From Bdellovibrionales bacterium GWA2_49_15 (GTDB lineage: Bacteria; Bdellovibrionota; Bacteriovoracia; Bacteriovoracales; Bacteriovoracaceae), in assembly GCA_001769855.1 (NCBI GenBank), contig MEPP01000001.1, positions 660,982 through 724,981 of the forward strand: DNA of 64,000 nt. The letters run 5' to 3'. Shown here one piece after another: positions 24,544 through 35,468 of the stretch (its first letter is position 1; each line of letters starts with the position of its first letter). The position numbers and the translations under genes were made by a program. Below the pieces are notes generated by a model that had not been told where the DNA came from, ran no database searches, and was given only the letters and a program-made list of their open reading frames with translations.

Positions 24544-25599
24544 TCACGGCCACGAGCCAAAATCATCCAGTCCGGCGGTCTCTTCAAGGCCGAACATTAA
24601 ATTCATGTTTTGAACGGCCTGGCCGGCGGCGCCCTTCACCAAATTATCGATGGCCGAAACAACGGCAAAACTCTTGCTACCACTTCTCTCCTCTCTGAGG
24701 GCCCAGCCAATCTCAACAAAGTTGGTATGGGCGATATTGACGACCTCGGGAAGACCTTTGGGAGAAACCAGGCGGATGAAGGGATGGCCCTTATAATATT
24801 CGCGATAAATTTTTTCAAGTTCGGCTTCGGTAATCGAGGCCGGCAAATCCACCACCGAGTTTGTCAAAATGCCACGTGAAAGGGGTGCCGAAATGGGGAT
24901 AAAGTCGATGGACAAATCTTTTCCGCCGGCGGCAATTAAAGTTTGCTCCATCTCCGGCTGATGTTGATGACTAAGGGGCTTGTAGCTTTTTAAGTTATTA
25001 ACTCGAATGGGATGATGAGTTCCCTCCTGGGGGGCGACACCACTTCCACTACTGCCCGTGGGCCCGATCGCCCGGACCTTGCCTTTCAGGAGGCCATTTT
25101 TGGCGAGAGGAAGAAGCGCCAGAGCAACCGAGGTGGGAAAACATCCGGGGTTGGCAACATACTGGGCCTTCTTGATTTCAGCTCGATTAAGTTCCGGCAG
25201 ACCGTAGATAAATTTTTCTAAATTTTCGGGATTGCTGTGGGTGGCCTTGTAGTAGCTATTATAGATGGCGGCATTTTTTATCCGATAATCGCCGGAGAAA
25301 TCAATAATTTTAATATTCAGCTTCATCAGCTCAGGAACTTTGAGAAAAGAAACGTGATGAGGCAAGGCCAGAAAAACGACCTGACAATCTTTGGTCAGCT
25401 CCTGGGGCGAAATATCTTCCAGGATATAAGGCAGGCGATCACCAAAGCAGCGATGGACCTGGCCGACATTTTTTCCCACATGATCAATACTGGAAATGCG
25501 ATTGAGGTGAACATCGGGGTGCTGAACCAGGCGTTTTATCAGCTCGGCCGCGGCATATCCGCTCCCCCCCATTAAAGCTGCTTTTATTTTTTTTGTCAT
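24544..25599 (-). CDS. argC: N-acetyl-gamma-glutamyl-phosphate reductase
   Basis: Reduces N-acetylglutamyl-phosphate to the semialdehyde with NADPH, the third step of arginine synthesis. The 351-residue protein has the NADP-binding GGSGYAAAEL (11-20) and the active-site NPGCFPTS with Cys153; HHPIRVN-type segments follow. Length matches the long argC form. GGAGG lies 7 bases before ATG 25599. The 35-bp-arm palindrome lies immediately upstream, between this gene and tryptophanase. No argJ, argD or argA is visible here, so the rest of the pathway must be elsewhere. Confidence 0.93.
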   Translation of the reverse strand: MTKKIKAALMGGSGYAAAELIKRLVQHPDVHLNRISSIDHVGKNVGQVHRCFGDRLPYILEDISPQELTKDCQVVFLALPHHVSFLKVPELMKLNIKIIDFSGDYRIKNAAIYNSYYKATHSNPENLEKFIYGLPELNRAEIKKAQYVANPGCFPTSVALALLPLAKNGLLKGKVRAIGPTGSSGSGVAPQEGTHHPIRVNNLKSYKPLSHQHQPEMEQTLIAAGGKDLSIDFIPISAPLSRGILTNSVVDLPASITEAELEKIYREYYKGHPFIRLVSPKGLPEVVNIAHTNFVEIGWALREERSGSKSFAVVSAIDNLVKGAAGQAVQNMNLMFGLEETAGLDDFGSWP

Positions 25600-25616: not shown

Positions 25617-25690
25617 TAGGTACGTGATACTTATCCTGAGCACCTAGTCATCTGAATGACTAGGTGCTCAGGATAAGTATCACGTACCTA
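25617..25690. repeat. Perfect palindrome, 35-bp arms, copy 1
   Basis: The left arm (25617-25651) is the exact reverse complement of the right arm (25656-25690) around the loop CTGA. The outermost bases are T/A and an inner pair reads TTATCC/GGATAA. The right edge contains the tryptophanase stop codon (CTA, read as TAG on the minus strand), and the left edge ends 17 bases before the argC start. A nearly identical palindrome occurs at 34225-34297. No T-run follows on the argC side. See findings. Confidence 0.95.
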
Positions 25691-27049
25691 AACTCTCTCT
25701 AGTTTGGCTGAAAAATGGCGTAAAAAAGGCGGCTCCTCCACGATCTTAAAACCGCGAAGCTGATTTTTCATCTCGCTCACCTTCACAATCACCTCGCCCA
25801 CATAATCGATATGACTCTGGGTATAGACTCGCCTTGGAACGGCCAGACGCACCAGCTCCATCTTAGAATTTTGCCCAAACATAAAACTGCCGATCTCCAC
25901 CGAGCGCAGACCGCCCACGCGATAGAGTTCGGTCGCCAGGGCCTGGCCAGGGAGCTGATGAGTGGGAATATGGGGCAGCAGCGCCTTGGCGTCCAGATAG
26001 ACGGCGTGGCCTCCCACGGGAGTTAGAATGGGAATGTCATGCTTGATCAAGTGCCGGCCTAAATATTCCATGGAGGCAATCCGATAGTGGAGATAATCTT
26101 CGTCAACCACCTCGCGCAAACCTTGAGCGATGGCCTCCAGATCACGTCCGGCCAAACCGCCATAGGTCGGAAAGCCTTCGGTAAGAATGCCAAGATTTTT
26201 TACGTGCGCAGCCAGCTCGGGATCATTCAAGGTCAGCCAGCCTCCGATGTTCACCAGCGCATCTTTTTTGGCCGACATCAGCGAGCCGTCGGTACAGGAA
26301 AACACCTCCTGGGCTATTTCTTTAATGGTGCGATGGCCTTGGCCGGGCTCGCGTTTCTTGATGAAATAGGCGTTCTCGGCAAAGCGACAGGCATCCAGAA
26401 AGAAAGGAATTTTATGGGCGCGACAAATTTTGCTGACCTGTTTGATATTTTCCAAAGCCACGGGCTGGCCGCCGCCGGAATTATTGGTCACGGTCATGAG
26501 CACCATGGGAATATTCTCTACTCCCTTGTCGCGGATAAAATTTTTCAGCTTGTCTAAATCCATATTTCCCTTGAAGGGATGATCGGAGCGGGGATTCTTT
26601 CCTTCCTCAATCACCAGGTCTATCGCCTCGGCACCGGTGTACTCGATGTTAGCGCGGGTGGTATCGAAGTGATTATTGTTTAAAATGTATTTACCTTTTT
26701 TACCAATGATGGTGAACAAGATGCGTTCAGCGGCCCGCCCCTGATGGGTGGGAAAAATAAATGAATGGGACGTCAGCCCCTTGACCTCGCGCTCAAAGGC
26801 AAAAAAAGATCGCGCTCCGGCGTAGGACTCGTCACCATCAATCATGCCGGCCCACTGCTTCGAGGACATGGCCCCCGTGCCACTATCTGTGAGCAGGTCA
26901 ATCAAGATGGCCTCGGCCGGAATAAGAAATAAATTGTAATGGGCGCGCTTCAACCATTCTTCGCGCTCGGGTAGCGACAGGCGGGCGAGGGGCTCAACCA
27001 TTTTAATGCGGAAGGGTTCGATGATAGTCTTAAATTCAAAATCTTTCAT
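25688..27049 (-). CDS. tnaA: Tryptophanase (tryptophan indole-lyase)
   Basis: A PLP enzyme cleaving tryptophan to indole, pyruvate and ammonia. The 453-residue protein carries PTHQGRAAE (100-108), the PLP-lysine segment MSAKKDALVNIGG with Lys262, and FAENAYFIK (223-231). Two features favour tryptophanase over the close relative tyrosine phenol-lyase: His in LRHFSAKL near the C-terminus (His445, where the phenol-lyase has Phe) and VEIGSF where the phenol-lyase has its phenol-binding Arg. Some stretches (NIGGWL) look more like the phenol-lyase, so a related substrate is possible. The start is 14 bases after the CrtC/AttH-like gene, in the oxidase operon. No TnaC leader peptide is seen. Confidence 0.85.
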   Translation of the reverse strand: MKDFEFKTIIEPFRIKMVEPLARLSLPEREEWLKRAHYNLFLIPAEAILIDLLTDSGTGAMSSKQWAGMIDGDESYAGARSFFAFEREVKGLTSHSFIFPTHQGRAAERILFTIIGKKGKYILNNNHFDTTRANIEYTGAEAIDLVIEEGKNPRSDHPFKGNMDLDKLKNFIRDKGVENIPMVLMTVTNNSGGGQPVALENIKQVSKICRAHKIPFFLDACRFAENAYFIKKREPGQGHRTIKEIAQEVFSCTDGSLMSAKKDALVNIGGWLTLNDPELAAHVKNLGILTEGFPTYGGLAGRDLEAIAQGLREVVDEDYLHYRIASMEYLGRHLIKHDIPILTPVGGHAVYLDAKALLPHIPTHQLPGQALATELYRVGGLRSVEIGSFMFGQNSKMELVRLAVPRRVYTQSHIDYVGEVIVKVSEMKNQLRGFKIVEEPPFLRHFSAKLERV

Positions 27050-32103: not shown

Positions 32104-32309
32104 AAGAATCCACCTTGATAAATTTATGGGCAATTATCCCATGTCATAGACATTTTTGAAACAAACAACACGCCTCCTCATCGCATGGCGCTAAAAAATA
32201 AATTGCCGATTATCATCCTTGTCAACCTGTCCGGAAAACCACTATAAACCCGCTCAACACACTTATGACTGTTTTTATCAATTCATACAAAAAAAAGAGG
32301 AGATCACAC

Positions 32310-33389
32310 ATGAAAAACCTAGGACAATCGACCAGATTGTTGGCGGTGTTGCTGATGTTGAGTGGGCTTGGCGCCACCTTCAAAGGCTGCGTCTACAACC
32401 CAGTTCAAAAGGACTATTTAACAACCAGTGGCACTGTCCAGCTCCAAGGGACTATTGCCGAGTTCAATGACGCCGGGAAGTTTGTTAAAAACTATCCAGG
32501 TCAAGTTCACTTGAAAAAGAATGGTGCTTTTGTTTCTGACTGGAAAAATACCGATGGTACAGTGTGGGACTACCCCTCAGTCGCCCTCAGCAATGGTCTC
32601 AATACCTTTAACGGAGACGTGCGTTTTCAAAATGCTACGGGAACATGGGTGAACGGCCAAATTCCTTCCATCTTAATCGAAAAGAAAACTGACCTGTCCA
32701 ATCGTGGCGAACAAAAAGTTTTCCTGGATTGGAGCGATACCAAAACTGATACTTTAATTAAAGAGATGGCCACGAAAACGCTGGATAAAACTTTCACCGA
32801 AGCCGAACTCACAACCTTCGTTGCCGATGTCAAAAATCGCGTTGTCACTTTTTTTAACGCTGCCTACAATGGCTCCCGCGTGACTCTGGTTGGCGCGGCA
32901 GGTACCGACGTTCATACCATTAAATTTGATGGTGCTGATCGCTGTGACTATTATGGACAGTCACCAGGGGATTACAAAAACCAAACCAAACAACAAACCT
33001 CCAGTATTTACATCGGAACCTTCCACTGCGTTGTGGTGGATGATAATCGGTTGATCAATGGTACTGCAGCTGAGAAGAGCGATACCGTTGCTCAACGCGT
33101 GAACGATCTGGGAGTTTTTATCGGCAGAACCGCAACTCATGAATTGGGCCATAGCCTTGGTCTGACGGACGAGAGCAACTTGCATGGCTGTGAAGGTATG
33201 CACAACTGCGAAGCCTATGACGTATCCAATCCCTCTGACCGTTTTGATAATGGACACTACATCATGGACCCTGGACCAAAATCCACTATCTGGGCACGCC
33301 TCGGGTTGGAAAATTCCACAACCAGAAACGCTCAATCACCCAAATTCAATAGCTATAACCGCAGCTATTTAGAAATCATTCACAATTAA
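32310..33389 (+). CDS. Lipoprotein metzincin-type metalloprotease
   Basis: The 359-residue protein begins with a signal peptide and a likely lipid-modified Cys (ATFKGC, about residue 27). Residues 277-287 read HELGHSLGLTD, the metzincin-type zinc site HExxHxxGxxD with Asp as third ligand (as in snapalysin). A Met-turn follows at HYIMDPG with Met319, the expected spacing for a metzincin. Two CxxxxxC segments follow the site (HGCEGMHNC). ATG 32310 is preceded by AAGAGGAGA. The next exported gene starts 11 bases after the stop, so they form an operon. Protease identity is well supported; substrate is not. Confidence 0.85.
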   Translation: MKNLGQSTRLLAVLLMLSGLGATFKGCVYNPVQKDYLTTSGTVQLQGTIAEFNDAGKFVKNYPGQVHLKKNGAFVSDWKNTDGTVWDYPSVALSNGLNTFNGDVRFQNATGTWVNGQIPSILIEKKTDLSNRGEQKVFLDWSDTKTDTLIKEMATKTLDKTFTEAELTTFVADVKNRVVTFFNAAYNGSRVTLVGAAGTDVHTIKFDGADRCDYYGQSPGDYKNQTKQQTSSIYIGTFHCVVVDDNRLINGTAAEKSDTVAQRVNDLGVFIGRTATHELGHSLGLTDESNLHGCEGMHNCEAYDVSNPSDRFDNGHYIMDPGPKSTIWARLGLENSTTRNAQSPKFNSYNRSYLEIIHN

Positions 33390-33400
33390 GGAGACTTCAA

Positions 33401-34216
33401 ATGAAGATAACACTATTTTTCACTCTGCTTTTGGCTTCCATACTGGCAGCTCCACTTCGAGCAACCGACACTCCTGAAGGTGCCGATGCCTTTTTTCATC
33501 AAATGCGAAATGCCAACATTGTGGTTCTCGCCACCTTGAAAGCACAAGATGCTGAACGATTCACCTTTGTACTTAACAAATCGCTCCTTGGTGCTGTTGA
33601 TGCGCAAATTGTTCTCCCTCGCTTCTCAATGGAACTTGCCAATGGCGTTTTACCACGCGTCGGCGGTAGCTATCTGCTCTTTTTAAAACAGAGAAAAATT
33701 CTCGGGCGCCGGGGAATCGTCGGCTGGGCCATGGGCGGATATTCCATTCAAGAAGTTAAAGGTGCCGAATTTGATCTCCTCTCCGACGTGGTGGCAGATT
33801 ATGTGCGCTACAAAACCGATGCCAACGGGTTAAAGCAGGCACTCATGAAACATAGTGCCCAGAAAATCGGCTACGTTCAGTACAGCACCATTTCTGACCT
33901 GGACACTCGCGGTCTCTTGAATGCGAAAGATGCCGGGCTCCTGGCCGAGAGATTAAAGGGCGGGCACATTATTGATGCTCGCGCCAAGTTGAGTGTCGTA
34001 AACAAGATCAAACATTTTAACTTGAAACAATTCGCTCCTCTCCTTGAAAGTATGATTATGAACACAAATGAAAACATTTCTGTTCGCACATCCTCCTTGC
34101 GCGGCCTCCAACAATTCGGCGATCAAGCCGCCTTGGCCCGGGTAGCACCAGTCATGGTTGATGGCATGTCCGGTCGTCTGCGCCGTACAACCATTGATAT
34201 TGTGAAGCCTCGGTAG
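33401..34216 (+). CDS. Exported protein of unknown function
   Basis: The 271-residue protein has a signal peptide (MKITLFFTLLLASILAAPLRA) followed by an alpha/beta first half and an all-helical second half (from about residue 140) that could be HEAT-like. AAGGAG lies just before ATG 33401. It is the second gene of the operon with the metzincin-type lipoprotein and may be its partner. It ends 8 bases before the second palindrome copy. Confidence 0.6.
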   Translation: MKITLFFTLLLASILAAPLRATDTPEGADAFFHQMRNANIVVLATLKAQDAERFTFVLNKSLLGAVDAQIVLPRFSMELANGVLPRVGGSYLLFLKQRKILGRRGIVGWAMGGYSIQEVKGAEFDLLSDVVADYVRYKTDANGLKQALMKHSAQKIGYVQYSTISDLDTRGLLNAKDAGLLAERLKGGHIIDARAKLSVVNKIKHFNLKQFAPLLESMIMNTNENISVRTSSLRGLQQFGDQAALARVAPVMVDGMSGRLRRTTIDIVKPR

Positions 34217-34224
34217 TCTTTTCC

Positions 34225-34297
34225 CAGGTACGTGATACTTTTCCTGAGCACCTAGTCATTGCATGACTAGGTGCTCAGGAAAAGTATCACGTACCTG
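34225..34297. repeat. Perfect palindrome, 35-bp arms, copy 2, followed by T8
   Basis: Left arm 34225-34259 and right arm 34263-34297 are exact reverse complements around the loop TGC. Compared with copy 1 the outermost pair is C/G instead of T/A, and an inner pair is TTTTCC/GGAAAA instead of TTATCC/GGATAA; both arms changed together. Eight T follow at 34299-34306, so on the plus strand it could also act as an intrinsic terminator for the upstream gene. It ends 9 bases before the ATG of the EEP gene. Confidence 0.95.
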
Positions 34298-34306
34298 CTT
34301 TTTTTT

Positions 34307-35041
34307 ATGGAACTTAAAATTTTAAGCTTCAACATTCACAAGGGCATGTCCTGGCATTCGCGCAATGCCACGCTGGCGGAGTTGCGGGAGTTCATCCGTG
34401 AATCACAGGCCGATCTGGTCTTTTTGCAAGAAGTTCATGGCGAAAATCTCCGCGAGAGGGAACGCATGCATAACGATTTTGCCTCCCAGTATGAGTTTCT
34501 GGCTGATGAGATATGGCAGCACTATTGTTATGCTAAAAACGCTGTCTACGATCACGGCCACCACGGCAACGTTATCCTGTCAAAATACCCAATTTTAGAA
34601 TGGCACAAGCAAGATATCTCCACTAATTCGTGGGAGCAGAGGGGTATCCTCGCGGCCAAGATCGAAATCCCCGAAACCAAGACCGTGCTTCAAACCTACT
34701 GCGTCCACCTCAACTTGTTTCCCCGAAGTCGCGTGCGTCAGTATGCCATGCTAGAAAAAAAAATCATGCAGGAAGCAGATGCCACGATGCCTCTGATTTT
34801 GGCAGGAGATTTTAATGAGTGGAGTCGACAGGCCACAAAGACTTTGGAAAAAAATCTCCAAATTCAGGATTGTCACAATTCAGTCCACGGGGAATACGCC
34901 AAAACATTTCCGGCCCTTTTCCCTATGCTGACCTTAGACAGAATTTATGTCAAAAATGTGATTGTGAGCGATACCCGGGCCCTCAGGCATCTGGGCATCT
35001 CAGATCATTTGCCGCTCATGGCGAAAATCGAGATAAACTAA
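34307..35041 (+). CDS. Endonuclease/exonuclease/phosphatase (EEP) family hydrolase
   Basis: The 244-residue protein has the EEP-family active-site blocks in order: LSFNIHKG (Asn9), FLQEVHGEN (Glu42), the HGNVILSKYP strand, AGDFNEW (Asp/Asn) and the closing SDHLPLMAKI. Family members cleave phosphodiesters in DNA, RNA, phosphoinositides or sphingomyelin; no signal peptide is seen, so it acts in the cytoplasm. An alternative GTG start at 34271 lies inside the palindrome, so I chose ATG 34307. There is no ribosome-binding site before it; the T8 stretch of the palindrome is immediately upstream. Substrate not predictable. Confidence 0.87.
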   Translation: MELKILSFNIHKGMSWHSRNATLAELREFIRESQADLVFLQEVHGENLRERERMHNDFASQYEFLADEIWQHYCYAKNAVYDHGHHGNVILSKYPILEWHKQDISTNSWEQRGILAAKIEIPETKTVLQTYCVHLNLFPRSRVRQYAMLEKKIMQEADATMPLILAGDFNEWSRQATKTLEKNLQIQDCHNSVHGEYAKTFPALFPMLTLDRIYVKNVIVSDTRALRHLGISDHLPLMAKIEIN

Positions 35042-35352
35042 ACCGCCCACACCAGAGAATTTGCACTGGCTGAAGCACCGTGATTGAGCTGAATCGCCAG
35101 CTCCATCTCCAGATCGCTAAGCACTTCTTCAAAAACCGGACCGATGGCAAATGCCGTGATGGGCATGAGCAATCCTTTTAACTCCAGGTTCAGGCAGATG
35201 TCATGGCGAACCGATGTGGCCTCCAAACGGGCCACACACCCAGATGGGCATTTTTGCAAAATTCGTTGCAGCCCATGCTCAAGTTGATTCTGTTCGTTTT
35301 GGTTAAGGTCTGTTTTCAAATCGAGATCGTAACGGATAGAAAAGTCGCGCAC
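35038..35352 (-). CDS. Small protein of unknown function, convergent with the EEP gene
   Basis: The 104-residue protein has alternating charged and hydrophobic strands and two Cys, no signal peptide and no recognised motif. It overlaps the EEP gene's 3' end by 4 bases on the opposite strand. It follows the 1669-residue lipoprotein gene on the same strand, separated by 116 bases that contain a stem-loop. Confidence 0.55.
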   Translation of the reverse strand: MRDFSIRYDLDLKTDLNQNEQNQLEHGLQRILQKCPSGCVARLEATSVRHDICLNLELKGLLMPITAFAIGPVFEEVLSDLEMELAIQLNHGASASANSLVWAV

Positions 35353-35432
35353 CTAAAATAGCTCCTTGGGATGATTGTGAAAGCCAGTATGCTCTTAATT
35401 AATTTTATTGCAATCAACAAAACTTGGCCACT

Positions 35433-35455
35433 CAGGCTGGCCCTATGCCAGCCTG
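35433..35455 (-). other. Stem-loop downstream of the 1669-residue lipoprotein gene
   Basis: CAGGCTGGC (35433-35441) pairs perfectly with GCCAGCCTG (35447-35455) around CCTAT. It lies 14 bases after the lipoprotein stop. There is no adjacent T-run in the minus direction, so it could be a processed 3' end or a weak terminator rather than a classical intrinsic terminator. Confidence 0.45.
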
Positions 35456-35468
35456 TATTTACAGCATG

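Follow-up and report, generated by a model that had tools for sequence, protein, structure and literature searches.

Palindromic hairpins in Bdellovibrionales bacterium GWA2_49_15 as probable gene-less derivatives of a RAYT/TIRYT-type transposon

Two perfect palindromes between genes

The window (the whole stretch of 64,000 nucleotides analysed, positions 660,982 to 724,981 of contig MEPP01000001.1) contains two copies of a long palindromic hairpin, one between a tryptophanase/tyrosine phenol-lyase-like gene and argC and the other between an open reading frame (ORF) and a gene of the EEP family (Table 1). The original prediction had described both as palindromes with pairing preserved between copies, and both are perfect: 35 of 35 arm positions are complementary at each site, with copy 1 (arms 25617-25651 and 25656-25690) closing on a 4-nt loop (CTGA) and copy 2 (arms 34225-34259 and 34263-34297) on a 3-nt loop (TGC). 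No other inverted repeats of more than 18 bp with a spacer of up to 100 nt were reported in the whole window, no tRNA was found in it, and it gave no match against Rfam; a DNA search of the plasmid collection with the hairpin gave no match either. As RNA, copy 2 folds at -64.9 kcal/mol (shuffles, -17.2 +/- 2.9; z = -16.3), and the arm 34225-34259 alone at -3.3 kcal/mol (z = 0.68), i.e. no better than its shuffles.

Table 1. Features at the two hairpin sites of the window.
Feature	Position	Strand	Remarks
argC (N-acetyl-gamma-glutamyl-phosphate reductase)	24544..25599	-	TIGR01850, 364.6 bits; start in congener G002 overlaps lyase stop
Hairpin element copy 1, AGGTACG...CGTACCT, 72 bp	25618..25689		Perfect palindrome 25617-25690; site empty in G002
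Tryptophanase/tyrosine phenol-lyase-like gene	25688..27049	-	TAG stop (25688-25690) formed by edge of copy 1
Upstream ORF, 271 aa, without family match	33401..34216	+	Stops 8 nt before palindrome
Hairpin element copy 2, AGGTACG...CGTACCT, 71 bp	34226..34296		Palindrome extends one chance pair per side (34225-34297)
T8 run, host flank outside element	34299..34306	+	T5+ runs near 0/23 copies in G086 and 1/4 copies in own genome
EEP (endonuclease/exonuclease/phosphatase) family gene, 244 aa, downstream	34307..35041	+	PF03372, 92 bits

The two copies differ in one inner pair (T-A versus A-T), in the loop and in the base pair just beyond the element. The inner difference is the previously described change from TTATCC/GGATAA to TTTTCC/GGAAAA on both arms, and it lies within the element. 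The outer change from T-A to C-G, which the original prediction had counted as a second compensated pair, is real as a base change but falls outside the conserved edge (AGGTAC...GTACCT). Going outward from the GTAC core, the first and second positions pair in 25 and 17 of 27 intact copies, and the third, the outer pair in question, in 9 of 27, which is about chance; the compensated changes inside the element are thus reduced to one.

A transposase gene with the same ends

A DNA search of the 4.86-Mb genome that holds the window (G000) recovered the arm sequence as a hairpin with a different centre (C1:782766-782840) and in a nested hairpin (C31:218238-218350), and the genome contains four intact hairpins in total plus several solo ends. 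A 0.7-kb segment (C1:818643-819333), about 123 kb from the window hairpin, is bounded by the arm sequence in inverted orientation and encodes RAYT1, a Y1 (HUH) transposase of 181 residues (PF01797, 36.1 bits, above the cut-off of 23) with NHYH as its HUH motif and YIYQNP as its tyrosine motif. Against the left end of RAYT1 the window arm is identical at 24 of 25 bases, and it shares GGTACGTGATACTTTT, which is present at both RAYT1 ends, with the right end. No gene-bearing element other than RAYT1 had both ends in the search of this genome, and three other Y1 genes there each carry their own, differing inverted ends. The RAYT1 transposon has the structure of the hairpin with a gene placed in its loop. 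One arm of the hairpin at C31:218265 is left-end-like and the other right-end-like, and the C1:782766 copy resembles the RAYT1 left end further inward, as would be expected of internal-deletion derivatives. Among solved structures TnpA-REP (4ER8) was the sole relative of RAYT1 by sequence (a weak match, E = 0.035), and against NF047646, the model of REP-associated transposases, RAYT1 scores 67.8, under the curated cut-off of 80.

Other repeats were observed in this genome. A tandem repeat of GGCTCCTGGCACCTCGTTA units just past the right end of RAYT1 (L024:2200-2250, contig C1) is similar to the terminal repeat of a RAYT located on C21 (GGCTCCTGGCACC). A second family of long palindromes, beginning GGTGCCAGGTCCTTTTCGTTAAC, occurs at C7:31391, C11:9798, C30:117178 and C32:37489 (L287, L290, L293 and L294), and an imperfect hairpin beginning GGTTCCATGACACTT (C1:653476-653526; L286 and L110:5477-5527) has ends resembling the terminal repeats of the C1:501459 RAYT.

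Of the 129 host-family genomes, 84 encode relatives of RAYT1. Ends were read at 39 Y1 loci, a sample that does not include every RAYT in every genome; in it, GTxCGTGATAC-type ends belong to one RAYT each in G000, G020, G059, G085, G086, G102 and G111, which a single branch of the protein tree (support 85/87) separates from the rest, and RAYTs outside this group carry other ends. On the tree the end type changes once, against 6.5 times when shuffled. The hairpins are palindromes of about 50-75 bp with AGGTAC-type feet and arms of about 20-35 bp, and the intact-hairpin pattern matched in five of the 129 genomes (G000, 3; G059, 1; G085, 12; G086, 21; G111, 2), the reversed control pattern giving 0 matches in the same set. 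All five belong to the seven-member group, an overlap whose chance, C(7,5)/C(129,5), is about 8e-8 if genomes are independent, which they are not fully, G085 and G086 being of the same genus. The pattern was unmatched in G020 and G102, where a RAYT of the clade is present. G085 and G086 are draft assemblies whose contig ends may hide copies, and the copy number of G086 is 22-24 overall against the 21 found by pattern.

A hairpin with GTACGTGGTACCTTTTGGGAC arms on C140 of G086 (L269:183-253) matches another RAYT of that genome at its ends (L279, GTACGTGGTACCTTTTGGGACC), a case which suggests that each RAYT may have its own hairpins. In another genus, two contigs (G024 C65 and C138; L283 and L284) begin exactly inside an arm of the hairpin family as would happen if a repeated palindrome had interrupted the assembly.

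At the site orthologous to copy 1, the congener G002 has no hairpin, and the stop of the lyase gene overlaps the start of argC (GTATGAC); on the minus strand the window reads CTAGAGAGAGTT-TAGGTAC...GTACCTA-GTAGGGGAGGAGAGAGTATGAC. Relative to G002, this copy has 8-9 bp direct repeats (ACTCTCTC) on either side, set back from the edges of the element; their origin may be a target duplication, chance or a small deletion in G002 that ended at them. No argC start following the lyase gene was found in distant relatives, which are therefore silent on whether the G002 state is ancestral. The hairpin is likewise absent, at lower identity, from the G083 site orthologous to one of the G086 copies, and no such direct repeat occurs there. 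Around copy 2, neither congener contains DNA homologous to 32200-35460, and no close EEP orthologue was found in the two.

Several features of the flanks were observed in addition. Directly at 15 of 118 ends, compared with 1.8% of random positions, there are short tandem duplications of the flank plus the first few element bases (e.g. L026:1476-1505, L124:1457-1480 and L134:979-1002, at GTxCGTGATAC elements in G000, G085 and G086), and the hairpin at L110:5477-5527 has such duplications on both sides; either a transposase footprint or slippage of the polymerase where a hairpin is extruded may account for them. A 1.4-kb segment (L297:2402-3799; C1:622.4-623.8 kb of G000), larger than the transposon itself, holds the RAYT at C1:623226 and is missing from the orthologous region of G002. 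Also missing from G002 is a 6.3-kb segment (L110:71-6400; C1:648.1-654.4 kb of G000) with two solo ends of the window-hairpin family and another hairpin.

Pairing of the arms and neighbouring genes

The statement that pairing is preserved through sequence change extends beyond the window. For 22 aligned copies of G086, which as copies within one genome are related, so that counts of covariation do not equal independent events, the covariation score is 0.090 against 0.044 +/- 0.006 after shuffling (reached by 0 of 500), 95.2% of cells pair against 92.3 +/- 0.5 when shuffled, and slid controls score far lower. A second permutation test on G086 gave 397 of 456 cells against 360 +/- 6.5, a value that none of 2000 permutations reaches, and all four Watson-Crick pairs occur at column 16 (U-A 12, G-C 6, A-U 2, C-G 1, unpaired 1). 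Whether one-arm mismatches are as frequent as paired changes received a mixed answer: in columns 1-21, the outer stem, 15 cells hold complementary changes on both arms and 16 hold departures of other kinds, with nine of the 15 sitting in one column and those other departures mostly in a few decayed copies. Columns 22-24 are mispaired in most G086 copies (CGCGCG opposite CATGCG), in both orientations, and the columns flanking them pair; four copies (L137, L138, L259 and L261) are perfect throughout.

Pairing could also be kept by copying between the arms, i.e. template switching or quasi-palindrome correction during replication, with no selection for folding, an explanation compatible with mobile-element identity. 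The perfect arms around different centres among the G000 copies point this way, as do the four faultless copies of G086, which repeated correction would give; copying of whole arms, however, would erase the mispaired zone that most G086 copies keep, and we regard this explanation as rather unlikely, though short-tract correction between arms is possible. The paired changes most likely reflect pressure to keep the hairpin foldable and not a built-in gene switch. The original prediction had offered selection for the hairpin or copying of one arm from the other; the former is favoured here, and the mispaired zone speaks against the latter in its whole-arm form.

A role as a host regulatory element, in which the hairpin and T8 run at 34225 would terminate the transcript of the upstream ORF and set the start context of the EEP gene, had also been proposed. 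The local arrangement suits such a role, with a very stable hairpin followed by one base (C34298, so that the run does not begin immediately after the arm as had been described) and then by T8, directly after which comes the EEP ATG, 9 nt past the arm and, as the original prediction had noted, with no visible Shine-Dalgarno sequence. The T8 run is nevertheless not part of the element: T5+ runs accompany none of the 23 G086 copies and one of the four in G000, and termination or start context as a property of the element is not upheld. Copy 1 has no T-run and stands between same-strand genes that overlap in G002, and the identical sequence bounds a transposase gene. With the element removed in thought, TCTTTTCC..CTTTTTTTTATG remains, a predicted hairpin-free site that is equally devoid of a Shine-Dalgarno sequence, whose absence thus need not stem from the hairpin; homologues of the EEP protein align from residue 1. 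A terminator scan, which counts at most 20 stem pairs and does not extend to a 35-bp stem, returned nothing at 34225. We consider a regulatory identity improbable; hairpin and T8 could possibly stop transcription locally at 34225, which would be incidental to the element.

The weakest alternative is that the hairpin, with no relation to the RAYT gene, is a miniature inverted-repeat element (MITE) belonging to a conventional DDE transposase. This is highly improbable despite the long inverted repeats, the short length and the 8-9 bp direct repeat at 25617, since the arms correspond to the termini of a Y1 transposase gene and track its clade across genomes, the DNA search of G000 gave no gene-bearing element with both ends apart from RAYT1, and direct repeats neither abut the element at 25617 nor occur at the G083/G086 site.

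Proposed identity and comparison with known systems

We propose, with a probability of roughly 0.87, that the hairpin is a non-autonomous, MITE-like miniature in which two terminal inverted repeats (TIRs) of a RAYT/TIRYT-type (HUH, single-tyrosine) transposon stand head to head without the gene. This identity, a reading absent from the original prediction, draws on the match of the arm to the RAYT1 TIR, the co-occurrence of hairpins with the transposase clade, the dispersed copies, one empty orthologous site and the covarying pairing. Set against it are the ACTCTCTC direct repeats at 25617, which are not expected from HUH transposition, the score of RAYT1 below the NF047646 cut-off, the presence of just four intact copies in its own genome and the clade members of G020 and G102, which have no pattern-matching hairpin beside them in their genomes.

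When the locus becomes single-stranded, e.g. on the lagging strand, the arms would pair and bring the AGGTAC/GTACCT feet together; the transposase would then nick the feet and, in line with the model put forward for TnpA-REP and REPINs, move or copy the hairpin to new sites. Copies unable to fold would not be propagated, which would keep the arms matched, perhaps with help from repair of short tracts templated by the other arm. Whatever a copy does to the genes beside it, possible termination at the 34299 T8 run included, would be a by-product of the landing site. A tentative extension, to which we give somewhat less than even odds, is that propagation occurs only when the arms pair on single-stranded DNA, that the mispaired zone is a recognition bulge for a TIRYT-type transposase and that the flank duplications are scars of the hairpin forming in vivo; if true, the dispersed copies would record natural selection on a DNA hairpin.

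Two known classes were rejected. Identity with IS200/IS605 does not fit the tyrosine motif of RAYT1, which is Y---NP and not the Y---Q of TnpA-IS200, nor its score of 20 bits against NF033573 (cut-off 55). An intrinsic terminator as the class of the element does not fit a U tract that is present at the 34225 copy alone of the four.

The element shares with REP/REPIN systems and their RAYTs (TnpA-REP; PMC3116915, PMC2817692, PMC8266576) the form of short, gene-less intergenic palindromes with a cognate Y1 transposase, and the mispairing at columns 22-24 in G086 is reminiscent of the functional bulge in Escherichia coli REPs (PMC8266576). Unlike GTAG REPs and REPINs, it has no 5' GT[AG]G foot, AGGTAC occurring instead in the copies and at the transposon ends, its single arm does not self-fold, the whole element being one hairpin, its copy number in G000 is low and its transposase falls under the NF047646 threshold. 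Double-foot REPs of TnpA-Y1 subclass 2.4 (PMC6006769) are likewise single long hairpins whose two feet carry one recognition sequence in opposite orientations, but these feet are GT[AG]G...C[TC]AC there and AGGTAC...GTACCT here; the motifs of RAYT1 fit class-2 TnpA-Y1 (PMC6006769).

Closer counterparts are the TIRtrons, in which a RAYT-like gene is bounded by long TIRs unrelated to GTAG REPs and the TIR repeats form dispersed families, often as dimers; the name TIRYT for their transposases comes from a 2013 survey (Di Nocera et al., 2013, PMC3733652), and these transposases mostly belong to TnpA-Y1 subclass 2.1 (Quentin et al., 2018, PMC6006769). The present system resembles them in its Y1 (HUH) RAYT-type gene with NHYH and Y---NP motifs, in its long TIRs (GGTACGTGATACTTTT at both RAYT1 ends), which are likewise unrelated to GTAG REPs, and in the dispersal of these TIRs as a repeat family that includes inverted dimers (4 in G000, 21 in G086 and 12 in G085). 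It differs in that its ends are of the AGGTAC/GTACCT type, against the GGGGWSAS consensus of most reported TIRs, and in that nearly all copies are one long, near-perfect hairpin. The linking of one transposase clade to cognate palindromes in five genomes, together with an empty site and covariation, makes the recognition and cleavage rules of the TIRYT group directly testable, and the locus is a caution that strong hairpins beside genes are easily misread as terminators. By its sequence features, the hairpin probably represents a new family within an established kind of mobile repeat, the TIRtron/TIRYT kind related to REPINs, which would work in a REPIN-like manner and not as a canonical REP.
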